From assembly GCA_030433275.1 (NCBI GenBank), contig JAUILK010000018.1, positions 1 through 62,003 on the forward strand: a stretch of DNA of 62,003 nucleotides. The letters are read 5' to 3'. Both the position numbers and the translations under genes were made by a program. Numbering within the stretch: the stretch's first letter is position 1; every line of letters begins with the position of its first letter. The DNA comes from Gammaproteobacteria bacterium (lineage in GTDB: Bacteria; Pseudomonadota; Gammaproteobacteria; Nitrococcales; Nitrococcaceae). Positions 4,856-32,846 of the stretch are shown here, piece by piece. The notes under the pieces were generated by a model that saw only the letters and a list, made by a program, of their open reading frames with translations, had not been told where the DNA came from and did no database searches.

Positions 4856-5067
4856 GCCATTTTCTTGCAAGGATGACCACCGAGTGTGGCCCATACAGCC
4901 CAACTCCATCATCTTGGTCAGGACGCCCGTGGAGGCGATGTATCTGACGGCGTCCATGAGCTGGGCTCCGAGCGGCGCTGCACGCCGCAATGGCACTGCA
5001 GCAGTGCGCGGCGCGGGCCGCTTGTGCGATCATGGCGGCTTGCCTCATACGCACCGCCGAAACGCTG

Positions 5068-6525
5068 ATGGATTCGCCGTTCCGAACGATGGACCATGAT
5101 TATCTTCAGACGCTGCGCCGCCTCCATCCGGCCTGGCGCCTGCTGGCCGCGGACCATGGGCCGCTGGTCATCGGCTTCCTGCACCGCTGCTTTATCGAGC
5201 CGAACGTGCGCACCCTACCCGAAGAGGAGGCGGCCGCGCGCCTGGAGGATTATCTTTTCCAGCTGCGCGAGCGGTTCGGCGAGGAGGCTTTCCCCAAGCG
5301 CGCACTCGACTACCTCAACGACTGGGCCAACGACCAGCGCGGCTGGCTGCGCAAATACTACCGCGAGACGCGCGACGAGCCTTGCTTCGATATCACGCCG
5401 GCCACCGAGCAGGCCATCGAGTGGCTGGCGGGACTGGAGCAGCAGCAATTCGTCGGCACCGAATCGCGGCTGCTCACCGTCTTCGACCTGCTGCGCCAGA
5501 TCGTCCAGGGCACCGAAACCGATCCCGAGACCCGGATCGCCGAGCTGGAGCGGCGCAAAGCCGCCATCGACGAGGAGATCGCCCGGATCCGTGCGGGACG
5601 GCTGGAGTTCATGGACGAGACCCAGCTCAAAGAACGCTTCCTGCAGATGACCGGCATCGCCCGCGCGCTGCTGGCCGATTTCCGCCAGGTGGAGCAGAAC
5701 TTCCGCGACCTCGACCGGGATGTGCGTATGCGCATCGCCACTTGGGAAGGGACCAAAGGTGAGTTGCTGGAGGATGTCTTCGGCGAACGCGATGTGATTG
5801 CCGACTCGGATCAGGGCAAAAGCTTCCGGGCCTTCTGGGACTTCCTGATGGCGCCGGCCCGCCAGGAGGAGCTGACCACTTTACTGGAGCGCATTTTGGC
5901 ACTGGACCCCATCGCCGCGCTGGGCCCGGACCGGCGCCTCGCCCGCATCCACTACGACTGGCTGGAGGCCGGCGAGACGGCGCAGCGCACCGTGGCCCGA
6001 CTCTCCGAGCAACTGCGTCGCTACCTCGACGAGCAGGCCTGGCTGGAGAACCGCCGCATCATGACGCTGCTGCGCGGGATCGAACAGCGGGCGCTGGCGG
6101 TCCGCGCCACACCGCCACCCGCCGCGTTCATGCAACTGGACGAGCCGGCGCCGCGGATCGAGCTGCCCATGGAGCGGCCGCTGTACAGCCCGCCGATCAA
6201 GCCGCGGATCGCGCAGCAGGTGCTCGTGGAGGGCGACGAGGACATCGCCGCCGATGCGCTGTTCGAGCAGGTCTACGTAGACCGGGAGCGGCTCCGCGCC
6301 CACATCCGCCGTGCCCTGCAGACCCGGGAGCAGGTCGCGCTGACCACTTTATTGGCGGAGCATCCGCTGCAGCAGGGGCTAGCGGAACTGGTCGCCTACT
6401 TGAGCCTGGCCGCCGCCGACCGCAAGGCGGTCATCGACGAGCAGACGCCTCAGAGCGTAGCCTGGACGGACGAGACCGGCCGAATTCGACGGGCACGGCT
6501 ACCGGCCGTCGTGTACACTCGCTGA
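5068..6525 (+). CDS. jetA: Wadjet anti-plasmid system protein JetA (DUF3375)
   Basis: A 485-residue protein opening with the DUF3375 signature LRRLHPAWRLLAADHGPLV, FLHRCF and EPNVRTLPEEE, followed by long helices, as in JetA/MksF-type kleisin-like subunits. JetA bridges the JetC SMC-like dimer in the Wadjet complex, which extrudes and cleaves small circular DNA. It is the first gene of a jetA-B-C-D run with the canonical type I order and 19 bases or fewer between neighbours. The start is either ATG 5068 or ATG 5089; both have weak ribosome sites, and I use the first. Frames upstream of 5068 do not resemble the family. Confidence 0.9.
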   Translation: MDSPFRTMDHDYLQTLRRLHPAWRLLAADHGPLVIGFLHRCFIEPNVRTLPEEEAAARLEDYLFQLRERFGEEAFPKRALDYLNDWANDQRGWLRKYYRETRDEPCFDITPATEQAIEWLAGLEQQQFVGTESRLLTVFDLLRQIVQGTETDPETRIAELERRKAAIDEEIARIRAGRLEFMDETQLKERFLQMTGIARALLADFRQVEQNFRDLDRDVRMRIATWEGTKGELLEDVFGERDVIADSDQGKSFRAFWDFLMAPARQEELTTLLERILALDPIAALGPDRRLARIHYDWLEAGETAQRTVARLSEQLRRYLDEQAWLENRRIMTLLRGIEQRALAVRATPPPAAFMQLDEPAPRIELPMERPLYSPPIKPRIAQQVLVEGDEDIAADALFEQVYVDRERLRAHIRRALQTREQVALTTLLAEHPLQQGLAELVAYLSLAAADRKAVIDEQTPQSVAWTDETGRIRRARLPAVVYTR

Positions 6526-6544
6526 CCAGCATCGCAACGATCCC

Positions 6545-7144
6545 ATGAACGACACCCACGTCCCCAATCAGCTTCCGCCCCTGCTCGTCGCCCTGTTCAA
6601 GGGCGTGCTCTACAAGGACCAGAGCTCGGAGCTCTGGCAGGGCCTGCTCGAGTTGCAGGCCCGGGTGCGCGACTACGTGGCGGTGCTGGGACTGGAGCTG
6701 ATGCTGGATGAGGCCGAAGGGTATGCCTATCTGCGCCAGCGACCCCAGGACGAGGCCGAGGCGGCGCTGCCGCGGCTGGTTCCGCGCCGGCCGCTCAGCT
6801 ACCCGGTCAGCTTGCTGCTGGCACTGCTGCGCAAGAAGCTCGCCGAGCACGACGCCGGCGGGGGCGAGCCGCGGCTGATCCTATCCCGGGAGCAGATCGT
6901 CGACATGATTCGCGTGTTCCTGCCGGACACGGCCAACGAGGCTCGCCTGGTGGACCGCATCGATACCCACATCAACAAGATCGTGGAGTTGGGCTTCCTG
7001 CGCCGGCTGCGCAACCGCGGCGATCACCTCGAAGTCCGGCGTATCCTGAAGGCTTACGTCGACGCGCAGTGGCTGGCGGAGTTCGACCGCCGGCTGGCGG
7101 AATACCGCGACCAGGCCGGCGAGCCGACGGAGAACCGCGTATGA
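6545..7144 (+). CDS. jetB: Wadjet anti-plasmid system protein JetB (DUF4194)
   Basis: A 199-residue protein of the DUF4194/MksE type. Features are LLVALFKGVLYKDQSSELWQ at the start, YAYLRQRPQDE, the RRPLSYPVSLLLALLRKKL helix, LSREQIVDMIRVFLPDT, and a winged-helix end with IVELGFLRRLRN and RRILKAYVDAQWL. JetB is the KITE-like (tandem winged-helix) partner that binds the JetA kleisin. Its TGA overlaps the ATG of jetC by four bases, implying translational coupling and fixed stoichiometry. Length and order match type I Wadjet. Confidence 0.9.
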   Translation: MNDTHVPNQLPPLLVALFKGVLYKDQSSELWQGLLELQARVRDYVAVLGLELMLDEAEGYAYLRQRPQDEAEAALPRLVPRRPLSYPVSLLLALLRKKLAEHDAGGGEPRLILSREQIVDMIRVFLPDTANEARLVDRIDTHINKIVELGFLRRLRNRGDHLEVRRILKAYVDAQWLAEFDRRLAEYRDQAGEPTENRV

Positions 7145-10100
7145 CGTCACAAGGCGAGCTGCTCGATTTCGCCGAGACCAACGAGCGCGCCGGTTTCCGC
7201 CTGCACCGCTTCGAGGTCTACAACTGGGGCACCTTCCACGACCGGGTGTGGAGCCTGCCGCCGTGCGGCGAGAACACATTGCTCACCGGCGACATCGGCT
7301 CCGGCAAATCCACCCTGGTCGACGCCCTTACCACCTTGCTGGTGCCCGCCCAGCGCATCACCTACAACAAGGCCGCCGGCGCCGAGGCCCGGGAACGCTC
7401 GCTGCGCTCCTACGTGCTCGGCTACTACAAGTCGGCACGCGACGAGACGGGGCTCGCCGCACGGGCGATTGCCCTGCGCGATCACAACAGCTACTCGGTC
7501 ATCCTTGGCCACTTTTTCAACGAGGGCTTCGACCGGCACGTCACCCTGGCCCAAGTGTTCTGGCACAAAGACGCCCAGGGGCAGCCGGCGCGCTGCTATC
7601 TGGTGGCCGACCGGCCGCTGAACATCACCGAGCACTTCGCCGGCTTCGGCAACGACATCAATGACCTGCGCAAACGCCTACGCGGCCTGACCGATGTGGA
7701 GCTGCACGAGACGTTTCCACCCTATGGGGCCGCCTTCCGGCGCCGGTTCGGCCTGGGCCACGAACAAGCCCTGGAACTGTTCAACCAGACCGTCTCGATG
7801 AAATCCGTAGGCAACCTCACCGACTTCGTCCGCGGCCACATGCTGGAGGCCTTTCCGGTCGAGCCCCGCATCGAAGCGCTGATCGGCCACTTCGACGACC
7901 TCACCCGCGCCCACGCGGCGGTGATCAAGGCCAAGGCGCAGGTCGAGGCGCTGGAGCCGCTGGTAGCGGATGCGCGGCGTCACGCCGAACTCGCCGGCGA
8001 GATCGAGATCCTGCGCGCTTGCCGCGATGCCCTGCGCCCTTATTTCGCCGCACTCAAGGGTGAGCTGCTCGAGCGGCGCCTGGACAACCTGGATCAGGAA
8101 CTGAACCGGTGCGGCAATCGTATCATCGAGTTGCAGGATACGCGACGCGGCGAGCAAAGCCGCCGCGACGAGCTCAAGCGCGCCATCGCCGAGAACGGCG
8201 GCGACCGCTTGGAGCGTATCAAGGCCGAGACCGCCGAACGGCAGCGGGAACGGGACGCACGCCGCAAGCGCGCCGAACAATACAACACCCTCGCCCGGGA
8301 GCTGGAGCTGCCCGAGCCGGCCGGGGCCGAAGCGTTCCTCGCCAACCACCGCGCGCTGGAGACCGAGCGCGCGGCCTGCGAGCCGCACCTGGAGCAGGTG
8401 CAGAACCGGCTCACCGAGGCCAATGTGGAGTTCCACGGTTTCAAGACCGAGCACGGCGGGCTCCAGACCGAGCTGGAGTCCCTGCGCCAACGCCGCTCCA
8501 ACATCCCCGCCCGGATGCTCGCCATCCGCGAGCGGCTCTGTGAAGCTCTGGAGCTCAACGAGGACGCGGCACCCTTCGCCGGCGAGCTGATCCAGGTGCG
8601 CGCGGAAGCCCGGGACTGGGAGGGTGCCGCGGAGCGCTTGCTGCACGGTTTCGGACTGTCGCTGCTGGTGCCCGACGCTCAATACGCCCGAGTCGCGGAG
8701 TGGGTGGACGCCACCCACCTCAGCGGCCGGTTGGTCTATTTCCGGGTCCTCGGGCGGCGTGCGGCGGAACCCACCGAACTGCACCCGCAATCGCTGATGC
8801 GCAAGCTCGCCATCCGCCCCGACTCCGCCTTCTATCCCTGGCTGGAGGCGGAGCTGGCGCGGCGCTTCGACTACGCCTGCTGCGAGGACATGGCGCGCTT
8901 CCGGCGCGAGCAGCGGGCGATTACCCAGGCCGGCCAGATCAAAGCCGGCGGCGATCGCCATGAAAAAGACGACCGCCACCGCCTCGACGACCGTTCCCGC
9001 TACATTCTCGGTTGGACGAACGAGGCCAAGATCGCCGCGCTGGAACAGCAAGCCCGCCACCTGGAGCAGCGCATGCAGGCCGTGGGCCGCGAGATCGCCA
9101 CGCAGCAAGCCGCGCAAAAGCGCTTGCAAACGCGGCTGCAAAAGCTCGGTAACCTCGCCATGTTCAGCGACTTCCGCGAGCTGGACTGGCGTCCGGTGGT
9201 GACCGAGATCGAACGCCTGGAGGAAGAACGCCGCCGCCTGGAGGCCGAGTCGGACATTCTGCGCGCGCTGGAGGAGCAGCTTCAGAGCTTGGAGGCGGCG
9301 ATCGAGCGTACCGAGGAGGCGCTTACCCGGGCACAGCGCGAGCAAGCCGCCGCCGAGAGCAAGCACGAGGCGGCCCAACTGGCGTTGGAAGAGACCCGGC
9401 AGCCGCTCGCCGCGACGCCGCAAGCGCTGCGCACGCGCTATTTTCCCCGGCTCGAGGCCCTGCAAGCGGAGGCCCTCGGCGAGCATCGACTGACCGTCGA
9501 GTCCTGCGACAATCGTCAGAGCGAGCTGCGCGAGTGGCTACAAAAACGCATCGACGCCGAGCAGAAGCGGCTCGACCGTTTGCGCGACAGCGTCATCGAC
9601 GCCATGCGCTCCTACCAGAACGCCTACCCGCTGGAGACCCAGGAGGTGGATGTCAGCATCGACTCCGCCGCCGAGTACGCGGGCATGCTGGAGCGGCTGC
9701 GCGCCGACGACCTGCCACGCTTCGAGGCCCGCTTCAAAGCCTTGCTCAACGAGAACACCATTCGTGAAGTAGCAAGCTTTCAGGCCCAGCTCAACCGCGA
9801 GCGCGAGGCGATCAAGGAGCGCATCGAAACCATCAACCGCTCCCTGCACGAGATCGACTACAATCCCGGCCGCTATATCACGCTGCTCGCCGAGACCGCC
9901 GCCGACCCCGAGATCCGCGACTTCCAGCAGGAACTGCGCGCTTGCACCGAGGGTGCGCTTACCGGCTCGGAGGAAGCGCAGTACTCCGAGGCCAAGTTCC
10001 TGCAGGTCAAACGCATCATCGAGCGGTTCCGGGGACGGGAAGGCAGCACCGAGCTCGATCGCCGCTGGACCCGCAAGGTCACCGACGTGCGCAACTGGTT

Positions 10101-10563
10101 CGGTTTCTCCGCCTCCGAGCGCTGGCGCGAGGACGGCGCCGAATACGAACACTACTCCAACTCTGGCGGCAAATCCGGCGGCCAGAAAGAAAAACTCGCC
10201 TACACCGTGCTCGCCGCCAGCCTGGCCTATCAGTTCGGCCTGGAATGGGGCGAGACTCGCTCGCGCTCGTTTCGCTTCGTGGTCATCGACGAGGCCTTCG
10301 GGCGCGGCTCGGACGAGTCGGCGCGCTACGGATTGGAGCTGTTCAGGCGGCTCAACCTGCAGCTGCTCGTCGTCACGCCGCTGCAGAAGATCCACATCAT
10401 CGAGCCGTACGTGGCGAGCGTCGGCTTCGTCCATAACGCCGAGGGCCGCGAGTCCATGCTGCGCAACCTCACCATCGAGGAATACCGAACCGAAAAAGCC
10501 GCCCGGGGCGGTGTCGCGGCCACCGCGGAGCAAAGTGCAGCCCTCTCCTCGGCCGGCCGATGA
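7141..10563 (+). CDS. jetC: Wadjet anti-plasmid system SMC-like ATPase JetC
   Basis: A 1140-residue SbcC/MukB-like P-loop ATPase. The head has Walker A GDIGSGKST at about residues 50-58. The long middle is coiled coil rich in Glu, Arg and Gln, interrupted by a hinge-like globular part around residues 470-600. The C-terminal head carries the ABC signature SGGKSGGQKEKLAY near residue 1008 and Walker B FVVIDEAFGRGSD near 1047. In the Wadjet complex JetC dimers drive ATP-dependent loop extrusion on plasmid DNA. The start is ATG 7141, overlapping the jetB stop; a longer in-frame reading from 7069 lies within jetB and is rejected. It also overlaps jetD by four bases. All catalytic motifs are intact. 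Confidence 0.93.
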   Translation: MTSQGELLDFAETNERAGFRLHRFEVYNWGTFHDRVWSLPPCGENTLLTGDIGSGKSTLVDALTTLLVPAQRITYNKAAGAEARERSLRSYVLGYYKSARDETGLAARAIALRDHNSYSVILGHFFNEGFDRHVTLAQVFWHKDAQGQPARCYLVADRPLNITEHFAGFGNDINDLRKRLRGLTDVELHETFPPYGAAFRRRFGLGHEQALELFNQTVSMKSVGNLTDFVRGHMLEAFPVEPRIEALIGHFDDLTRAHAAVIKAKAQVEALEPLVADARRHAELAGEIEILRACRDALRPYFAALKGELLERRLDNLDQELNRCGNRIIELQDTRRGEQSRRDELKRAIAENGGDRLERIKAETAERQRERDARRKRAEQYNTLARELELPEPAGAEAFLANHRALETERAACEPHLEQVQNRLTEANVEFHGFKTEHGGLQTELESLRQRRSNIPARMLAIRERLCEALELNEDAAPFAGELIQVRAEARDWEGAAERLLHGFGLSLLVPDAQYARVAEWVDATHLSGRLVYFRVLGRRAAEPTELHPQSLMRKLAIRPDSAFYPWLEAELARRFDYACCEDMARFRREQRAITQAGQIKAGGDRHEKDDRHRLDDRSRYILGWTNEAKIAALEQQARHLEQRMQAVGREIATQQAAQKRLQTRLQKLGNLAMFSDFRELDWRPVVTEIERLEEERRRLEAESDILRALEEQLQSLEAAIERTEEALTRAQREQAAAESKHEAAQLALEETRQPLAATPQALRTRYFPRLEALQAEALGEHRLTVESCDNRQSELREWLQKRIDAEQKRLDRLRDSVIDAMRSYQNAYPLETQEVDVSIDSAAEYAGMLERLRADDLPRFEARFKALLNENTIREVASFQAQLNREREAIKERIETINRSLHEIDYNPGRYITLLAETAADPEIRDFQQELRACTEGALTGSEEAQYSEAKFLQVKRIIERFRGREGSTELDRRWTRKVTDVRNWFGFSASERWREDGAEYEHYSNSGGKSGGQKEKLAYTVLAASLAYQFGLEWGETRSRSFRFVVIDEAFGRGSDESARYGLELFRRLNLQLLVVTPLQKIHIIEPYVASVGFVHNAEGRESMLRNLTIEEYRTEKAARGGVAATAEQSAALSSAGR

Positions 10564-11753
10564 GCTGGACCACTCCGGCTGAGCTGCGAGCCCAGGTGGC
10601 ACGGCTTTGGGAGCGGGGGGAGATCCTGCGCGCCCGCCTCACCGGCGAACCCCTCTTTCCCCTGCGATTGCGCCTGAGGCGGCCCTCCGCACGCGAAATC
10701 GCCGATCGTTTCGGCGAGGTCGGCGACTGGATCAGGCATCTGCAGGCCGGCAGCCGCGAGCAGCGCGGCACCGGCTACGCCATCGAGTGGCGCCAGATCA
10801 ATCACCGGGTGCATGGCGCAAACCACCTGCCGGACAGCATTATCGTCCCCAGCGAGCGTGACGCGCTCACGCTCATCAGCCGGACCGCGCAGGCTGAGCG
10901 GTTTCAGGCGTTGGCTGCGGCCACCCTGGAACGCTTCCCAACGCTCGGGCCGTGGCTTGCGCAGCACCCCTTGACGGCGCTCGAACAAGCCCGGCACTGG
11001 GAAGCCGTGTTGGCTGTGCTGAGCTACTTCGCCGCGCATCCGCGCCCCGGATGCTACCTGCGCGCGCTCGACATCCGCGGGGTCGACACCAAGTTCATCG
11101 AGAGTCACCGCAAGCTGCTCGCCGAGCTACTGGACCGGGTACTGCCCGAGGAAGCAATCGATTGGGCGGCCTCCGGTACCAGAGGCTTCGAGCGTCGCTA
11201 CGGCCTCCTCGCCAAGCCCGCCCTTATCCGCTTGCGTATCCTCGACGAGCGGCTCTACCTCAGCGGCCTCAACGATCTCTCCGTGCCGCCCGAGCAACTC
11301 GACCGGCTGCGTCTGCCGGTGCATCGGGTTTTCATCACCGAGAACGAAATCAACGGCCTCGCCTTCCCGGACGCCCCGGTCAGCGCGGTAATTTTCGGGC
11401 TCGGCTACGGGTTGGATCGCTTGGCGGAAATCCGCTGGCTGCACGAGGTAAACGTCCACTACTGGGGCGACATCGACACCCACGGCTTCGCCATTCTCGA
11501 CCGCCTGCGCGGTACTTTCCCTCAGACCCGCTCCTTGCTCATGGACCGCGCCACCCTGGCCCAGCATCAACACCTGTGGGTAAAGGAGCCGCGCGAGAGC
11601 CGCTTCGAAGGCCGCCTGAGCCGCCTTGCCGAACCCGAACAGGCCCTATTCGATGATCTGCAGGCCAACCGACTGGGAGACGGAGTGCGCCTGGAGCAGG
11701 AACGCATCGCCTACGGCTGGCTGGAGCAGGCACTGCGCCAGTTCGAACCGTAA
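10560..11753 (+). CDS. jetD: Wadjet anti-plasmid system Toprim nuclease JetD
   Basis: A 397-residue protein with an N-terminal DUF3322 region (YAIEWRQINHRVHGANHLPD, FPTLGPWLAQHPL) and a C-terminal DUF2220/Toprim domain. The Toprim catalytic residues are visible: the Glu in RVFITENEINGLAF near residue 260, and the acidic pair in YWGDIDTHGFAIL near residue 303. In Wadjet this topoisomerase-VI-like subunit cuts the DNA once JetABC has extruded it. ATG 10560 overlaps the jetC stop, so the four genes form one translationally coupled operon. The last 43 bases overlap the end of the convergent gene on the minus strand. Confidence 0.92.
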   Translation: MSWTTPAELRAQVARLWERGEILRARLTGEPLFPLRLRLRRPSAREIADRFGEVGDWIRHLQAGSREQRGTGYAIEWRQINHRVHGANHLPDSIIVPSERDALTLISRTAQAERFQALAAATLERFPTLGPWLAQHPLTALEQARHWEAVLAVLSYFAAHPRPGCYLRALDIRGVDTKFIESHRKLLAELLDRVLPEEAIDWAASGTRGFERRYGLLAKPALIRLRILDERLYLSGLNDLSVPPEQLDRLRLPVHRVFITENEINGLAFPDAPVSAVIFGLGYGLDRLAEIRWLHEVNVHYWGDIDTHGFAILDRLRGTFPQTRSLLMDRATLAQHQHLWVKEPRESRFEGRLSRLAEPEQALFDDLQANRLGDGVRLEQERIAYGWLEQALRQFEP

Positions 11754-17519: not shown

Positions 17520-18533
17520 TCAAGGCCTGCTTGCAAGCCTTGAGCGGGGCGCCGGCTGCCAGCCCTCTGACACGATCGTGTTACGGCCGATCCGCTTGGC
17601 CCAGTACAGCCGATCGTCGGCTAGCTTGATGAGTTCAAAACAGCTGCTGTTGTGCTCGCTGACACCGCCCCGCTCGCTCAACGCGCGACGGGCTTCGCGC
17701 AGGTCGGCCACACCCATCGATAGGGTTACCGGGATGGTCGCACCGTCGAACTCGAAGAGCTCGGAGTCGACAAGCTTCCGCAACATCTCCGCTACAGCCA
17801 TCGCTGTATGCTTGCCGCGCTTCGGCAGTAGCGCTACGAACTCCTCACCACCGTAACGGGCAAAAATATCATCGGGCTGGGTGTGGCGCTGGATGTACTG
17901 TGCAACTTGCTTGAGGACATAGTCACCGGCCAGATGGCCATAGCTGTCATTGATCAGCTTGAAGTAATCAATATCACACAAGATCAATGACAGGTCGCGA
18001 TCGTAGCGCACCGATCGACCCACCGCGCGCGCCATCTCCTTGAGAAAATAATACTTATTATAGACTTGGGTCAGCCCATCAATTGTCGTCAGCCGATAAA
18101 TTTCCTCATGGTAGCTTGCTTCGATGTTGCTACCGGTCAAGAACTTGAGAATTGTCCGACCAATTTTGATCTGATCACCTTCACCAAGCGAGTGCTCATG
18201 CACGGTCTGGTCGTTGACATAAGTCCCATTGGTCGACCCGAGGTCGCGTATTACGAAACGATCCCTATGGCCCTCGATGATCGCGTGCTTGCGGGAAATC
18301 GCTTCTTCGTCGATCTGGATGTCGGCCTCGCTGGAGCGGCCAACAAGTATCGAGGCCTGAGCCAGACTGTACTTTTTACCCAAATCGATTCCGTTGATCA
18401 CAACGAGGCAGGCATCTCGCGATAAGGGAACACCCGGCGACACCTTCCCGGTGACCGTAACCACCGTGCGTTCACCACCCAACTCGCGTTCGAAGCTATC
18501 CGGTCCAACTGGACCGTCAGGAGGGCGTGGCAC
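17520..18533 (-). CDS. FHA-domain diguanylate cyclase (FHA-GGDEF)
   Basis: About 337 residues. An N-terminal FHA domain shows ILVGRSSEADIQIDEEAISR, KHAIIEG and RDLGSTNGTYVND, the residues that bind phosphothreonine peptides. A C-terminal GGDEF domain follows (TTIDGLTQVYNKYYF, LILCDIDYFKLINDSYGHLA, RYGGEEFVALLP). The GGEEF active site and metal-binding Asp are intact, so it should make cyclic di-GMP. The usual inhibitory I-site RxxD just upstream is QPDD, so product inhibition is probably lost. The start is uncertain: GTG 18533 has AGGGG upstream, while the frame stays open to a TTG at 18584. It is cytoplasmic, linking a Ser/Thr phospho-signal to cyclic di-GMP (family inference). Confidence 0.85.
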   Translation of the reverse strand: MPRPPDGPVGPDSFERELGGERTVVTVTGKVSPGVPLSRDACLVVINGIDLGKKYSLAQASILVGRSSEADIQIDEEAISRKHAIIEGHRDRFVIRDLGSTNGTYVNDQTVHEHSLGEGDQIKIGRTILKFLTGSNIEASYHEEIYRLTTIDGLTQVYNKYYFLKEMARAVGRSVRYDRDLSLILCDIDYFKLINDSYGHLAGDYVLKQVAQYIQRHTQPDDIFARYGGEEFVALLPKRGKHTAMAVAEMLRKLVDSELFEFDGATIPVTLSMGVADLREARRALSERGGVSEHNSSCFELIKLADDRLYWAKRIGRNTIVSEGWQPAPRSRLASRP

Positions 18534-18762
18534 GTGTAGTACCCCTATCACGAAGTAGGATCTTGTCCCTGGACGAGACGGCAAACTCCAAGGAACCGAC
18601 CATGGGCGATTAAAGCAGACAATGGGTCAAAATGCCAACTGTGTATCAACACAATACGGCCAGCGGTTGCCTGAGCCGCAGCTTCGCGGAAAGGACAAGA
18701 TGAAATAAGCGTTCGCGGGACTTCCAAAAAACCCCAGGCTGTTATTTGTGCTTGCATCTTGG

Positions 18763-19764
18763 CTACTCTTTCAAGAGTGCCCCTGCAGCGTTCTCCTCGA
18801 ATATCCCCGCCTCTTCGATATACTCCTGCACCGTCGCGTCATGCCGCCAACCACCTTGTCGTTTGATGGCACGGAACTCGGCACCGGCACGATAGGCGCT
18901 AGTCGCCAAACCACGCCGCAGGCTGTGACTACTCAGCTTGGTGGCATCGGGCAAACCCGCCTCGACGGCCCGAGCCGCAAGAATGGTGTTGACACTGCCC
19001 GCTGTCAAAGCCGCCAGGCCGACTTCACCCCAACGGTTGATGCGCCGGAACAGCGGACCGCACTCGATCGCGGCGGCTATGAGCCAACGCTGCAGAGCCG
19101 TGGCCGGGCAACAAAGCCCCCTGCCATAAGGGATTGCCTTCGAAAAACCTTGGCCGCTCGGATCGGTCTTGGAACGCGGCAGCGTGATCAGTAGACCTTC
19201 GCGTTCCCAGGACAAATTCGAGACCGTGAGCCCCACCAACTCCCGGCGGCGAAACGCGCCGAAGTACCCCGTCTGCAATAAAGCACTATCGCGCAGCGCG
19301 GCCTGCGTCCCGAGCTCGGCAAGCCGCACGACGATGCGTTGCAGCTCCTCCAGGGACAGCGCCTTGGCTTGTTGGCGGGGCCGCCCGTGCACACGCGCGA
19401 TGCCGCGGAGAGTCTTACGCACGGTCGGGGCCGCAGCCGGGTCGGCAAAGCCCTGAAAGCGATGCCACTGTGATAGCGCCGTCAAACGCAGCCCAAGTGT
19501 ACGCGGGTTTAACTGCTCGGCAAAAGTGAGCAGGTAGCGCACCACCGTCGCCGCATCGCAGGGCAATACCCCTCCCCAGGCCAGGAAATGACGAATCGCC
19601 GAGCGGTAGACGCGCCGGGTGTTGTCGGCGGTCGCGGCGGCGAGAAACCGCTGGTGCTGCTGCGCCAGTTGTACCGGGGTTACAGGCGTACCGCCGATAC
19701 GGCTGGACAACGCACCGAACCCGACCAAAACGGTAGCGTTCTCCCCTTTCTTACTTTTTGCCAT
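18763..19764 (-). CDS. Tyrosine recombinase/site-specific integrase, KfrA-paired type
   Basis: A 333-residue phage-type integrase. A SAM-like core-binding domain (FLAAATADNTRRVYRSAIRH, FLAWGG) precedes the catalytic domain. Catalytic residues seen are Arg in GYFGAFRRRELVGL, the SHSLRRGLAT box (HxxR), the WRHD box and the nucleophile in ATVQEYIEEAG. All appear intact. The start is ATG 19764 with AAGGAG eight bases upstream. It is transcribed away from a KfrA-like gene, with a 187-base AT-rich spacer. Integrases of this type next to kfrA-like genes recur as small chromosomal inserts; the target and role are not known to me. Confidence 0.88.
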   Translation of the reverse strand: MAKSKKGENATVLVGFGALSSRIGGTPVTPVQLAQQHQRFLAAATADNTRRVYRSAIRHFLAWGGVLPCDAATVVRYLLTFAEQLNPRTLGLRLTALSQWHRFQGFADPAAAPTVRKTLRGIARVHGRPRQQAKALSLEELQRIVVRLAELGTQAALRDSALLQTGYFGAFRRRELVGLTVSNLSWEREGLLITLPRSKTDPSGQGFSKAIPYGRGLCCPATALQRWLIAAAIECGPLFRRINRWGEVGLAALTAGSVNTILAARAVEAGLPDATKLSSHSLRRGLATSAYRAGAEFRAIKRQGGWRHDATVQEYIEEAGIFEENAAGALLKE

Positions 19765-19865
19765 CGGCAATCGCTCCTTGGGGCGCGTCTATACCCAAGA
19801 TTACAGCTTTTCTCATGAACGTCGCAGCATAACATACGATAATATTATTTATCGAAAGTTAAATT

Positions 19866-19930
19866 TAGAAAAATTTTCTACTTACCAAAGCACAATAATT
19901 ACATTAAATTACGTATTACATATTACGTAA
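19866..19930. promoter_or_regulatory. AT-rich divergent regulatory region with palindromes and short direct repeats
   Basis: TAGAAAAATTTTCTA (19866-19880) is a perfect 7-bp-arm palindrome. ATTACGTA occurs twice, at 19908-19915 and 19922-19929, 14 bases apart, the second inside the palindrome TTACGTAA. The region separates the integrase from the KfrA-like gene. KfrA proteins are known to bind and repress at repeats in their own promoters, so this is a likely autoregulatory operator controlling both genes (inference). Confidence 0.45.
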
Positions 19931-19951
19931 CAAAATTATTGGAGACCCACG

Positions 19952-20995
19952 ATGGCGCGTTCCGGCATCACGTATTTCCACGTCGCCCAGGCCGCCGCCG
20001 GCCTGGTCGACGCCGGCAAGAACCCGACGGTCGACGGCATCCGGGCCGCACTCGGCGGGACCGGCAGCAAAAGCACCATCGCTCCGCTGCTCAAGCGCTG
20101 GAAGACCGAATACGCCGAAACGGTGGCGGAAGCGGATACAGGGCTGCCGGCTGAACTCGTGCAGGCCGTAAAAGGGGTATACGAGAAAGTACAAGCGGAG
20201 GCAGCGCAGCTACGGGAGCAGCAACAGCACGCGCATGAGGCCGAATTACAGGCCCTTCAGGAGCAACTGCGTTCGTTACAGACTGAGCACGCGGCACTGC
20301 AGGAGAAACATCAGGCGCAGCTGCGGTCCCTAGAGGCGGCAACGGTGCAGATTCAGCAGCTGGAGGATGCACGACATGAACAGGCGGTCACCCTAGCTGG
20401 GTTGCGCAGTGAGAACGCCGGCCTCGAGCAACGGCTAAGTGATCGCACCGCCGCGACTGCGGCACTCACCGAGCAGCTGAACCAGGCACGAGCCCAGTTT
20501 GAGCATTATCAAGAAGCCGTAGCCCGACAACGGGCCGAAGAGCGCGAGACTGCGGAAGGGCGCCAGAATCGCTTGGAACAGGAGTTGGCTGAAGCCCGGC
20601 AGCAGGTACTGGCGCAACAAGCCCTCTCAAGCGAAGCGCAGGCACACGCTCAGCATCAGGCGAAAGAAAATGCGCGCCTGCAAAAGCGCTTACAAGCAAC
20701 CGATGAGGCCCTCGCACGCGTGCGCGCCACGCACGACCAAACCGCCTACCAAGTAACGCAGCTTACCCGGCGCCATCAAGCGCTCGAACAACGTCATCTG
20801 GCCGCCACCGAAGCACTGGCGGAATACCGCACTGGCCTGGCGGCAGCGGACAAGGAATGCGCTTTGCTGCGCGAACGGCTGGCGCAGACGGAAGAGCAAC
20901 TGGCGGCGCTGGCTCAGAAAAGAATCGACTTGCTGCAAGAGAAAGCGGTGCTCCGCGACCAATTGCGGCAACACCGGGACGCTAGCAACAACTAG
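19952..20995 (+). CDS. KfrA-like DNA-binding coiled-coil protein
   Basis: A 347-residue protein. Residues 1-60 form a KfrA_N DNA-binding domain (VAQAAAGLVDAGKNPTVDGI, then LGGTGSKSTIAPLLKRW). Almost all the rest is an alpha-helical coiled coil rich in Gln, Ala, Glu and Leu with heptad spacing. KfrA of IncP plasmids is an autorepressor that multimerises through such a tail and helps plasmid stability or partition. Here it is chromosomal, divergent from an integrase, suggesting a small mobile element or plasmid-derived pair. TTGGAG lies ten bases before the ATG. A separate regulatory function for the integrase is inferred from the shared spacer. Confidence 0.85.
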   Translation: MARSGITYFHVAQAAAGLVDAGKNPTVDGIRAALGGTGSKSTIAPLLKRWKTEYAETVAEADTGLPAELVQAVKGVYEKVQAEAAQLREQQQHAHEAELQALQEQLRSLQTEHAALQEKHQAQLRSLEAATVQIQQLEDARHEQAVTLAGLRSENAGLEQRLSDRTAATAALTEQLNQARAQFEHYQEAVARQRAEERETAEGRQNRLEQELAEARQQVLAQQALSSEAQAHAQHQAKENARLQKRLQATDEALARVRATHDQTAYQVTQLTRRHQALEQRHLAATEALAEYRTGLAAADKECALLRERLAQTEEQLAALAQKRIDLLQEKAVLRDQLRQHRDASNN

Positions 20996-28920: not shown

Positions 28921-29177
28921 AATAGTCCATTCCGCACCAGCCGTTCGCTTGACTGTGGCATGCGGCAGCCTGACCGACCGCGATCCATTTGCCCAGAGCG
29001 GGCCGCTGACCAAAATCAAAAGATGCGTACAAATTCACATTTGAACTGCCTATCATTTCTACCACGAACTGCGCCTCAGTTGGCATTTTTCCGCCTTCAT
29101 CCTCTTTAGCATAGGTCGTGCTATCTCGAATAGCATCGCGCGCAACAATGTCTTTAGAGCTCGCCAGGGAGGCTTGG

Positions 29178-30611
29178 ATGGAGCGTCTGTCCACAGGGGT
29201 CGAGGGGCTGGATGAAATTCTGAATGGGGGGCTCATCCCGCAACGCTCGTATTTGATACGAGGCGGGCCCGGGCGGGGCAAAACGACGCTCGGGCTGCAT
29301 TTTCTCACCGCGATCAACGAAGGCGAGTCCGCTTTGTTCATCGGCTTTCAGGAACCGGAGGCGCAGTTGCACAGCAACGCGGCTGCGCTGGGAATCGACG
29401 TCTCGGCGATCACTTTCCTGAGCCTCGCACCCGATGCGCAGTTTTTCACCGAACAGCAAAGCTACGATGTTTTTGCCGCAGCCGATGTCGAACAACAACC
29501 GCTTGTCGAAACGATTATACAGGCGGTAGAGTGCCATAATCCCACTCGCGTGTTCGTCGACTCGCTATCCCAGCTGCGCTTTCTCGCCACGGACATTTTC
29601 CAGTACCGCAAGCAAGTGCTGTCATTCCTACGCTACCTTACCCAACAAGGCACGACCGTGTTGTTCTCCTCCGAGAGCAGTCAGGAATTGCCCGACGACG
29701 ACCTGCAATTCATCGCTGATGGTGTGATCAACCTGGAAACGGACGTTTCCGGAGCGACCATTCGAGTATCGAAAATGCGGGGATCGAGTTTCCGCTTCGG
29801 AATGCATCACATGCGCGTCGCCGACGGCGGCATGGAGGTATTTCCGCGCATGATCCCAGCAAGCAATCGGCGGATCGAATTCGAATTGCAGCGCTGGGGC
29901 ACTGGAATTCAAAAAATTGACGATATCCTGCATGGCGGACTGGCTTCAACCACGATTTCCTTGATTACCGGGCCATCCGGTATGGGTAAATCAACTTTGG
30001 CGTCCCTGTTCGCTATCGAAGCGGCACGCCAGGGCAAGCGGTCCGCAATCTTTCTGTTCGAGGAAGAAATGGCTTTCTTTCTGCGCCGGGCCAAGGAACT
30101 TCGGCTGCCGCTGGAGGAGCCTTTTACCAATGGCGAGATCTTGATTGAACAAGTAGAGCCCATGCGTTATCTGGCCGACGAGTTCACCATGCGGGTGCGT
30201 CAACAGATCGAGGAGGCGGGCGTCAAAATGGTGGTGCTCGACAGCGTTACCGGCTTCGAGGTCGCTCTGGGGGGAGAGGCTGTCAGAGAGCGCTTGCACG
30301 CCTTCGCCAAGGGTTTAAGCCGACTGGGCGTTACGGTGCTGCTAATCAATGAAATCGAAGCCATGACCGGAGAATTCCGCATCTCGGAGAAGAACATCAG
30401 CTATCTCTCGGACAACGTGATCTTTCTGCGCTACATGGAGATCGACGGCATGCTCAAAAAGGCGATCGGCGTTCTCAAGAAGCGACTCAGCGGTTTTGAC
30501 AACCGACTTCACACATTCGAGGTCGGCCCCGGGGGATTCAAGATCGGCCAACCGATTCATGGCCTACATGGCGTGTTAGGAGGAGCCCCCGTGCCGCAGG
30601 ACGAATCATGA
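29178..30611 (+). CDS. KaiC-like dual RecA-fold ATPase
   Basis: A 477-residue protein with two KaiC domains. Domain 1 has STGVEGLDEILNGGL, Walker A GGPGRGKTT and a Gln-Glu at the catalytic Glu-Glu site (FIGFQEPEAQ). Domain 2 has TGIQKIDDILHGGL, Walker A GPSGMGKST, an intact Glu-Glu (LFEEEMAFF), MVVLDSVTGFEVAL and KNISYLSDNVIFLRYMEIDG. By alignment with cyanobacterial KaiC, the autophosphorylated Ser-Thr pair falls on Ser408-Tyr409. Start ATG 29178 is preceded by AGGGAGG. It overlaps a receiver-like gene by four bases. No KaiA or KaiB is present, so a clock is unlikely; a signalling ATPase feeding the downstream receiver/EAL genes is the best inference. Confidence 0.9.
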   Translation: MERLSTGVEGLDEILNGGLIPQRSYLIRGGPGRGKTTLGLHFLTAINEGESALFIGFQEPEAQLHSNAAALGIDVSAITFLSLAPDAQFFTEQQSYDVFAAADVEQQPLVETIIQAVECHNPTRVFVDSLSQLRFLATDIFQYRKQVLSFLRYLTQQGTTVLFSSESSQELPDDDLQFIADGVINLETDVSGATIRVSKMRGSSFRFGMHHMRVADGGMEVFPRMIPASNRRIEFELQRWGTGIQKIDDILHGGLASTTISLITGPSGMGKSTLASLFAIEAARQGKRSAIFLFEEEMAFFLRRAKELRLPLEEPFTNGEILIEQVEPMRYLADEFTMRVRQQIEEAGVKMVVLDSVTGFEVALGGEAVRERLHAFAKGLSRLGVTVLLINEIEAMTGEFRISEKNISYLSDNVIFLRYMEIDGMLKKAIGVLKKRLSGFDNRLHTFEVGPGGFKIGQPIHGLHGVLGGAPVPQDES

Positions 30612-30985
30612 TGGCAGCGGCCACAGCTAAAATCCTGCTGATCATGAAACAACCTGGCAACATACGCGTCATGCAACAGGTACTTTCCGGACTCGGTTAC
30701 CCAGGCCAGGGAATCCCCAATGTAACGGAGTTGCAGACGGCTCTAGCCAAAGCACCTCACCCACGCTTGGGAATTGTGGATATCACCGACTTCGGTTCTA
30801 ACAACCGGCAAATACATGCCATATATACCTGCTTGCAGGAGCACAGCATCCCCTTCATCGTGCTCTCGGCACCGCAAGTGTTCAATCTCGGCAACCGCTC
30901 TTTAACTTATGGCGCCACCAACATTTTACAAAAACCGATTGCGAAGTCCGCACTGCTCCAGCTTATTCATGGTCTAGCGGCCTAG
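30608..30985 (+). CDS. Single-domain degenerate response-regulator receiver
   Basis: A 125-residue stand-alone receiver-like protein. The usual acidic pair after beta-1 is replaced (ILLIMKQPGN). An Asp at position 58 (LGIVDITDFG) could be the acceptor. The switch Ser (FIVLSAP) and the Lys of the cis-Lys-Pro motif (ILQKPIAKS) are kept. Without the Mg-binding acids it may not be phosphorylated in the normal way. ATG 30608 overlaps the KaiC-like TGA, implying tight coupling and probably a direct partner role. Confidence 0.8.
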   Translation: MMAAATAKILLIMKQPGNIRVMQQVLSGLGYPGQGIPNVTELQTALAKAPHPRLGIVDITDFGSNNRQIHAIYTCLQEHSIPFIVLSAPQVFNLGNRSLTYGATNILQKPIAKSALLQLIHGLAA

Positions 30986-31112
30986 GACTGTTGACAAATA
31001 AGCACGGTTGGTAAGACGTAGCCACGCCACCTTGGCTAAAGGACATATTTTAGTGAGCAATGCCGGCCTCCGTTCCTTGAGATCCAAAACCTGCCTGGAC
31101 AGGTGATCGACT

Positions 31113-32846
31113 ATGGCCCAGCGCGACACAATCCCCTGGGTTTGTTGGCGCGGTTTGAGCAGTGGCGCGACTTCAACCGAAGAGTCGACCCCGGTGGATG
31201 AAAGCAACTCAAAGCGAGTCCTATTACTGGCGCGCTCAGGCGGCAACCGGGAACAATTGTTGGCTCATCTACAGCAGCACTATACGGTTATCGAACCGGA
31301 TGAGACCACACACTTTTTGGCGTCGTTCGACCTCGCCGTCGTCGAGGCCCCCACCTTCTGGCAATGGCGCCACCATCTCATAGAAGCCAAACGGCGGGAA
31401 GAACCTGTCTTTCTGCCCGTAATGCTCGTGCTCTCGCAGCGAGATGTCAGGCGCAGACTCAAAGCCTTTTGGGATGTAGTCGACGAGTTCGTCGTCGCAC
31501 CGATCAATCGCAGTGAATTTACCGAACGGGCGGCCATGCTGCTGCGCACCCGCCGGCTCGCGCTGACTCAGCGAGCCCATCTGGCCTATTTGGTCAATCA
31601 CGACCGCGCCACGGATCTGCCCAACAAACACCTGTTTATGGACCGACTCATCAACGCGGTGCGCGATGCCACCGTCCTCGATACAAAGCTGTATATGATG
31701 GTGGTCCATATCCCCTTGGCGCGCATCTTGAAATCGTTGGGCCATCATGGACTTGAGCGGGCCGCTCTAGCGTGCTCGGTACGCCTCAAGGCACTGCTCG
31801 CCGAAGAGCTTTCCCTCGCCCGGCTGACTACCGAAGAGTGGGGCCTGATTCTACGCCCAGGCACACCGTTGGATACAGTACTCGAACTCTGTCGCCGCAT
31901 TCAAATGCTAGCCGAAGAGCCACTTATGGTGCTCGGCGAACGCATCCATTTCTCACCCCGTATAGGCATCGGAGTCTATCCGGATGACGCTTCCAACGCA
32001 GCGAATACATTGGATTGTGCCATAGCGGCATTGTCCCAAGCCAAATCTGAACAGCCAGTGTTTTATTCGCGTACCGTCCAACATCAAGCGCTTCGACACA
32101 TCCGCACCGAGGCGCGTCTGCACCAGGCGCTCGATGAGGCGCAATTCGAACTCTGGTATCAACCGCAGGTGCGCCTCAGTGATCGCCAGCAGGTAGGCGT
32201 CGAGGCATTGATACGCTGGCGGTTACCCTGCGGATCGCTGGTATCGCCCAAAGATTTCATGGCCGTGGCTGAAAGCACCGGACTTATTCGCGATATCGAC
32301 CGATGGGTGCTTAAGCATGCCTGTGAGGCCATGCGCCGCTGGCGTAATGGAAATAATCCACCCAAGCGGATCTCGGTCAACGTCTCCGCCGAGGACATCA
32401 AGGCAGCCGACTTTGCCGAGGTGGTGGTGCGCATTCTGGATCAGAATCAGCTTCCGCCCCCCACGCTTGAACTCGAGCTAACGGAAACCACACTGTTTGA
32501 AATAAGCGCCGAAAACTTGGCCAAACTCAATACCCTGCGAGAATATGGCGTAAGCGTGGCAATTGACGATTTTGGAACCGGCTACTCATCCTTGAGTTAT
32601 CTGCATCGACTACCGATCACCACTTTGAAAATCGACAAGGCCTTTGTCGACGATGTGACCCACAACCTGACCAATCAAGCCATTACTCGCACAATCGTCT
32701 GGTTGGCAAAGAATTTCAACCTGGAAGTCATCGCCGAGGGTATCGAAACTGTGGAGCAGGCTCGTTACTTGAAATCGCTGGAGGTGCACACCGGGCAAGG
32801 GTTTTTGTATGGCCACCCAGTCCCCGAAACGCTGTTCCACCAATAA
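31113..32846 (+). CDS. Pseudo-receiver, degenerate GGDEF, EAL cyclic-di-GMP phosphodiesterase
   Basis: A 577-residue protein. Residues ~35-145 form a receiver fold in which the acceptor position reads FDLAVVEAP (Glu for Asp) and the conserved Lys is absent (FVVAPINRSE). A GGDEF-like domain lacks the active motif (LTTEEWGLIL). The C-terminal EAL domain looks fully catalytic: VEALIRW, ISVNVSAEDI, LELELTETTL, AIDDFGTGYSSLSYL, LKIDKAFVDD, VIAEGIETVEQ and GQGFLYGHP. It should hydrolyse cyclic di-GMP. It lies 127 bases after the receiver gene on the same strand, so it may be in the KaiC-like transcription unit or have its own promoter. Confidence 0.88.
   Translation: MAQRDTIPWVCWRGLSSGATSTEESTPVDESNSKRVLLLARSGGNREQLLAHLQQHYTVIEPDETTHFLASFDLAVVEAPTFWQWRHHLIEAKRREEPVFLPVMLVLSQRDVRRRLKAFWDVVDEFVVAPINRSEFTERAAMLLRTRRLALTQRAHLAYLVNHDRATDLPNKHLFMDRLINAVRDATVLDTKLYMMVVHIPLARILKSLGHHGLERAALACSVRLKALLAEELSLARLTTEEWGLILRPGTPLDTVLELCRRIQMLAEEPLMVLGERIHFSPRIGIGVYPDDASNAANTLDCAIAALSQAKSEQPVFYSRTVQHQALRHIRTEARLHQALDEAQFELWYQPQVRLSDRQQVGVEALIRWRLPCGSLVSPKDFMAVAESTGLIRDIDRWVLKHACEAMRRWRNGNNPPKRISVNVSAEDIKAADFAEVVVRILDQNQLPPPTLELELTETTLFEISAENLAKLNTLREYGVSVAIDDFGTGYSSLSYLHRLPITTLKIDKAFVDDVTHNLTNQAITRTIVWLAKNFNLEVIAEGIETVEQARYLKSLEVHTGQGFLYGHPVPETLFHQ

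Follow-up and report, generated by a model that had tools for sequence, protein, structure and literature searches.

Linkage of a KaiC-like ATPase to a receiver-like adaptor domain points to a signaling switch with exchangeable output enzymes

Introduction

In 2011, three genomic contexts of kaiC genes were described (PMC3164672). In one of them, a KaiC without kaiB precedes a kinase with an N-terminus that resembles both a receiver and SasA and was proposed to bind KaiC; Rta_04330/04340 of Ramlibacter tataouinensis, a KaiC and the kinase 'Nt_HK' with the N-terminus RtaNt, is such a pair. Receivers, kinases and GGDEF/EAL proteins were reported there in the vicinity of other kaiC genes, together with Ser/Tyr profiles that the authors regard as phosphorylatable. 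KaiC-like ATPases are also widespread outside circadian systems, where few of their outputs have been identified. Here we describe a cluster of three genes on a stretch of 62,003 nucleotides from a gammaproteobacterium of the Nitrococcaceae (contig JAUILK010000018.1 of assembly GCA_030433275.1), which is referred to as the window. The cluster encodes a KaiC-like ATPase (K, 29148..30611), a stand-alone receiver-like protein (R, 30608..30985) and a protein (E, 31113..32846) in which a receiver-like domain, here called EN, precedes a degenerate GGDEF domain and an EAL domain, all on the plus strand. A literature search of open-licence papers returned no paper describing an EN family across cyclic di-GMP (c-di-GMP) enzymes, and a search for Nitrococcus together with KaiC returned nothing relevant.

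Results and discussion

The constant partner of K is EN, the receiver-like domain at the N-terminus of E, and not the EAL domain. K belongs to a KaiC sub-clade with Ser/Tyr at the clock phosphosites, for which we use our own label, K1. Scanning genomes with the alignment of K gave at least 474 relatives; the best 80 of these, from several phyla, and loci from further genomes, after removal of duplicates (L039-L042, L163) and with the window not counted, form the K1 locus set. A K1 gene, scored at more than 440 bits with the next lower score at 416 and all rows under 440 bits left out of the locus counts, is present in 90 loci, again in several phyla, and 87 of them have at least 1 kb of sequence downstream. 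Within 2 kb downstream of K1 and on the same strand, an EN protein was found in 83 of the 87 loci, R in 49, and both in 47. The first partner frame begins at most 20 nt from K in 59 of the 85 loci that have a partner. Where both partners are present, R precedes EN (46/47); in the one exception, L130, the called EN frame begins inside K and the EN domain itself follows R.

That the trio might be unique to this genome had been named beforehand as an outcome that would refute a sequence-only reading of the window, made without database searches. The trio is not unique, and K recurs with an EN protein in 83 of the 87 loci. As a fixed unit, however, we rejected the trio, R being undetected in 38 of these loci. 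R is dispensable.

Surveys of two whole classes gave the same picture. In the class of a Microcoleus genome (145 cyanobacterial genomes), K1 was found in 12 genomes (E below 1e-190) and EN in the same 12 (E below 1e-18), in each case downstream of K1 at a distance of at most 1.2 kb. Besides these 12 linked copies, the set contains two more of EN. All seven strong R matches lie between K1 and EN; the R scores then drop from 2.4e-21 to 1.9e-16, from where on other kinds of frames are matched. In the class of the window (369 genomes), K1 is present in six genomes (E up to 1.1e-184; next 2e-124) with EN just downstream in all six, and strong EN matches occur in seven (E up to 4.5e-22; next 5.5e-16). 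The hypergeometric chance of such overlaps is 2e-12 for six of the seven EN genomes among 369 and 9e-18 for 12 of 12 among 145, figures that serve as a guide only, because they involve related genomes, cut-offs that for the 369-genome set were placed at visible score gaps after the search, and some genomes that contributed to the profiles (for EN, G000, G006 and G413 among the six class genomes). Matches below the K1 gap were left out, namely G065, G214 and G362 in the window's class (E 1e-106 to 1e-124) and G500 and a second match of G511 in cyanobacteria (E about 1e-105), as were the weak matches to EN, most of which are ordinary receivers (in 294 of the 369 genomes at E 1e-6, best 5.5e-16). 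Per genome, 4 or 11 candidates were scored for K and 11 or 30 for EN, so that some genes may have been missed.

The surroundings of the module vary. In the window's genus (L037, L038, L057), genes for an arginine succinyltransferase and an M20 peptidase adjoin it, and pnp lies on its other side in L037 and L038. These flanking genes were not found in the examined stretch of the other 11 of the 14 loci compared. Thus the module persists in differing genomic surroundings.

Several observations weigh against a strict coupling of EN to K. Four of the 87 K1 loci have no detectable EN (L059 and L113 with neither EN nor R, L067 and L083 with R only). The second EN copy of the cyanobacterial genome G420 has no K within 12 kb, and the seventh EN genome of the window's class, G383, carries an orphan EN with no K in 12.7 kb. 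In addition, the EN profile was built from K-adjacent genes, some of them from the genomes surveyed, and distant EN domains may escape it. Finally, EN could be a dimerisation adaptor resembling the second receiver of PleD that makes no contact with K. In the form of a simple response-regulator phosphodiesterase this would mean that EN only dimerises the EAL domain, as the second receiver of PleD does for GGDEF, next to an unrelated K. EN does match the second-receiver region of PleD, and PleD structures are among its structural matches; yet the co-occurrence of K and EN is too tight across phyla and genomic settings, which makes this explanation very improbable. K and EN as unrelated neighbours were rejected, as they are found together in 12 of 12 cyanobacterial K1 genomes and in 6 of 6 from the window's class. 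The evidence favors the view that the genes form one unit, with EN sensing K and controlling the enzyme attached to it.

The enzymes fused to EN differ. Among 86 EN proteins, which include that of the window and the orphan of G383, 53 carry HATPase_c and are thus of the histidine kinase type, 20 carry EAL (all with GGDEF), four HD_5 (HD-GYP type), three GGDEF alone and one a SpoIIE phosphatase domain. EN is therefore joined to five output types. The remaining five are a fragment at a contig end (L058), three proteins with PAS domains only (L072, L092, L162) and one with PAS and HisKA at a contig end (L103). The orphan of G383 is L162 (3123-5753), behind whose EN PAS domains alone were detected; the neighbouring genes, read by eye, are PQQ-dehydrogenase-like. 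Kinases are thus commoner outputs than EAL proteins (53/86 against 20/86).

A rapidly built tree of 89 K1 proteins and three outgroup rows came with long-branch warnings; on it, the output type changes seven times among 82 labelled rows. With the unlabelled rows treated as a class there are 14 output changes compared with a shuffled mean of 35.3, and none of 200 shuffles was as low. R presence changes 14 times on the same tree, contig ends being taken as absence. This suggests that the output enzyme of one input module was exchanged several times. Because K1 and EN co-occur and EN is fused to varied enzymes, we regard EN as an adaptor that very likely couples the ATPase to interchangeable outputs. 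Taken together, the distribution points to a reusable ATP-driven signaling switch with swappable outputs. Of the proposal of a switch that controls c-di-GMP breakdown, the conserved unit and the predicted phosphodiesterase output were retained, with the correction that EN and not EAL is the constant element.

In the window the output is E, a protein of 577 amino acids. Its EN domain (31203..31577) was modeled by AlphaFold2 as a receiver fold without helix 2 (mean pLDDT 91.3), and nearly all of the 50 Foldseek matches displayed are receivers or receiver-bearing regulators by title, PleD included. On these matches, a KaiB-like thioredoxin fold was rejected for EN. The receiver fold with Glu at the acceptor position, which had been predicted, was borne out by the model and the family alignment; the position of the conserved Lys holds Ala, so that both the acceptor Asp and the Lys of receivers are missing. 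In the family (81 rows) the acceptor Asp is present in 69 and the Lys in 15. Of the main elements, beta-1, beta-3, beta-4, beta-5 and helix 5 are the most conserved, and the loop in the place of helix 2 is the least.

The GGDEF domain of E (31596..32051; PF00990, 47.4 bits) has TTEEW in place of the GG(D/E)EF motif. The EAL domain (32115..32819; PF00563, 243.7 bits) has all the catalytic motifs of EAL phosphodiesterases, i.e. EAL, N, E, DD, K, E and Q, and these are complete in all 20 EAL-type EN proteins. The clade of the window comprises 13 EAL proteins, including some from Halomonadaceae, Salinivibrio, Marinobacter and Saccharospirillum. GGDEF is degenerate in all 13, and the seven remaining EAL-type proteins keep it. 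The dead GGDEF and apparently active EAL read from the sequence alone are thus confirmed at the level of motifs, and E is predicted to be a dedicated c-di-GMP phosphodiesterase. With GGDEF dead but the EAL motifs complete, the module should set the rate of c-di-GMP removal.

The frame of K extends from 29118 to 30611, and homologues support a start at 29148 (Pfam PF06745, 5.7e-72); position 29178, where the sequence-only reading had begun, lies 30 bases inside the gene. Two separate PF06745 matches (29190-29849 and 29901-30551) establish the dual-RecA architecture claimed for it, and no other frame of the 3.41-Mb assembly has two such matches. The protein is 85-87% identical to its counterparts in the two nearest genomes. 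Both domains contain the Walker A Lys and the catalytic Glu, as expected of a KaiC-like ATPase. In the K1 alignment (90 rows, including the window and one duplicate record) the Walker A Lys is present in 90/90 in CI and in CII, and the catalytic Glu in 89/90 in CI and, at the E319-equivalent of CII, in 90/90. The S431-equivalent is Ser in 88 rows and the T432-equivalent Tyr in 87; K itself has Ser/Tyr and thus not the canonical S431/T432 pair. The alignment of K to KaiC stops at KaiC residue 490-495 of about 519. The stretch beyond is presumably the KaiA-binding tail, which would then be absent from K.

KaiA and KaiB gave no match in the 3.41-Mb assembly, in agreement with their reported absence from the cluster. 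A search of 21 genomes gave 18 KaiB matches (one below Pfam's cut-off), spread over 12 genomes. None of the 18 lies in a K1 locus, 12 adjoin a divergent KaiC, and 9 of the 17 K1-bearing genomes in this set have no KaiB match. In two loci from Chloroflexota, a second, divergent KaiC-like gene, which the K1 profile scores at about 205 bits, lies downstream (L092 4160-5593 and L065 14144-15410).

These features bear on the idea that K is a KaiC timer, a clock or an hourglass, which times c-di-GMP breakdown across hours. K is a member of the KaiC family, and PMC3164672 proposes an hourglass for a related pair of KaiC and kinase that lacks KaiB, and regards a second-site Tyr, as in the Ser/Tyr pattern of K, as phosphorylatable. 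However, Tyr replaces the canonical Thr in 87/90 rows, K scores 144.2 bits against NCBIfam circ_KaiC with its curated cut-off of 546.25, the KaiA-binding tail appears to be missing, and the genome has no match to KaiA or KaiB. Hence we consider a timer rather improbable.

R (125 amino acids) overlaps K by an ATGA at 30608-30611, in which the ATG of R starts at 30608 and the TGA of K occupies 30609-30611; this overlap is in line with the translational coupling proposed earlier. R scores 20.1 bits against PF00072, below the Pfam gathering score of 30.2. Nevertheless, AlphaFold2 gives a complete (beta-alpha)5 receiver fold (mean pLDDT 87.1), the best matches in the PDB are receivers, and nearly all of the 50 Foldseek matches displayed are receivers or response regulators by title. 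The profiles of R and EN match each other with a probability of 97.3%, which supports a single fold family. Of the residues typical of receivers, R retains the acceptor D58, S87 and K109. The acidic pair is absent, with M/K at the beta-1 positions, as the sequence-only reading had seen. The second of these acids is the main Mg ligand of receivers; it is missing in all 51 rows of the R family, of which 20 have the first. The acceptor Asp and the Lys are found in 51/51 rows and Ser/Thr in 48/51. A near-invariant Trp and Cys of the family are missing from R of the window (30790-30850) and of G004, with a short insertion there, and R of G001 retains both. Judged from these changes, R may be drifting in the window's genus.

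Since the acceptor Asp and the Lys are retained throughout the family, the claim that the module works by contact instead of phosphotransfer is not secure for R, whose phosphorylation they keep possible. R could be a working, atypical phospho-receiver that is phosphorylated by the EN-kinase in kinase-type loci, or by a kinase elsewhere in this genome, with R-phosphate acting on K or on the EAL protein. Its residues and its presence in 32 of the 53 kinase-type loci would fit such a phosphorelay. However, the second beta-1 acid is absent from every row, the first occurs in a minority and the R of the window has neither; R is not found in 38/87 loci, and its presence switches 14 times along the tree of K; and it is present in 13 of the 20 EAL-type loci, whose own output has no kinase. 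No kinase frame was seen in the cluster, as had been stated before, kinases elsewhere in the genome not having been searched. We regard the phosphorelay as unlikely.

The reading towards which we lean is the following. Members of the KaiC family are hexameric rings, and K1 would act as such a ring, an ATP-driven switch protein. EN would read its nucleotide state through direct contact, as gene linkage and domain architecture suggest, and hand this state on to whichever enzyme it is fused with, which in the window is the predicted c-di-GMP phosphodiesterase. R would serve as an optional accessory that probably modulates this ring. A bolder version, to which we give little credence, is that R and the output-fused EN compete for one site on the ATP-hydrolysing KaiC-type ring, whose state, possibly together with R phosphorylation, selects which of the exchangeable outputs is on, be it a kinase, a c-di-GMP synthase or phosphodiesterase, or a protein phosphatase. 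This would be a receiver-fold counterpart of KaiB and SasA, a cross-phylum signaling chassis that has converged on clock-like logic through another adaptor fold.

If EN reads K1 as proposed, the partner of a KaiC-like ATPase can be predicted from this small adaptor, which one lineage joins to c-di-GMP enzymes and another to histidine kinases. The role of a KaiC ring without KaiA and KaiB becomes directly testable in culturable hosts, e.g. Vreelandella and Arhodomonas.

Elsewhere in the window, a complete-looking Wadjet-type defence locus (4990-11753) was found. JetA (4990-6525), JetC (7069-10563) and JetD (10560-11753) are strong matches to PADLOC models; a DUF4194/MksE-like frame of 199 amino acids between JetA and JetC (6545-7144) is presumably JetB. 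A second c-di-GMP gene encodes an FHA-GGDEF protein on the minus strand (17520-18584), with GGEEF read by eye. A phage-integrase-family gene (18763-19770) adjoins a long coiled-coil gene that is KfrA-like by eye (together 18763-20995); the pair is possibly the remnant of a mobile element.

Comparison with known systems

KaiB has a thioredoxin-like fold, and the N-terminal domain of SasA is of the same fold. The cyanobacterial KaiABC system with SasA thus resembles the cluster of K, R and E: each has a double-RecA ATPase, a small stand-alone protein (KaiB or R) and an output protein (SasA or E) whose N-terminal domain shares the fold of the small protein. In the cluster, however, the receiver fold replaces the thioredoxin-like one, KaiA and KaiB have no match, and T432 is Tyr. 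PleD, PvrR and RocR are similar to E in having a receiver-like domain N-terminal to GGDEF or EAL, and EN resembles the second receiver of PleD. E differs from them by the Glu at the acceptor position, the absence of a kinase from the cluster and the KaiC-like neighbour.

KaiA3 of Synechocystis, too, contributes a receiver-like domain to a Kai-type system (PMC11372060). Unlike R and EN, it has a KaiA-like C-terminus and co-occurs with KaiB3 and KaiC3, whereas KaiA and KaiB were not found in the window's genome. The kaiC-kaiB-kinase-receiver operon BRADO1478-1481 of Bradyrhizobium, as described in PMC3899966, also places KaiC next to a kinase and a CheY-like receiver, but it has kaiB.

Closest is the Nt_HK group as described in PMC3164672. 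Like the K1 loci, it has a KaiC homologue without kaiB, with sites of the Ser/Tyr type, and a downstream output protein with a receiver-like N-terminus; the Nt_HK pair is co-transcribed. One kinase family is its systematic partner, whereas EN occurs on kinases as well as on EAL, HD-GYP-type, GGDEF and SpoIIE proteins. In addition, and unlike that group, K1 loci have R, which forms a conserved family of its own. The systematic downstream kinase with RtaNt has no counterpart in the window, where the output is an EAL protein. Two of our loci resemble the group: in L168 a KaiC is followed by a hybrid kinase, and in L167 the same N-terminal domain is encoded downstream. Their related KaiC (K2) is an outgroup to K1 on the tree. 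Aligned with hhalign to the N-terminus of L167/L168, which stand in for the Ramlibacter protein, EN gave a probability of 18.7% (E 0.0013). Because PMC3164672 already described KaiC with kinases of receiver-like N-terminus, the principle is partly known; new are the c-di-GMP outputs on one shared adaptor and the tight co-occurrence of K1 and EN.

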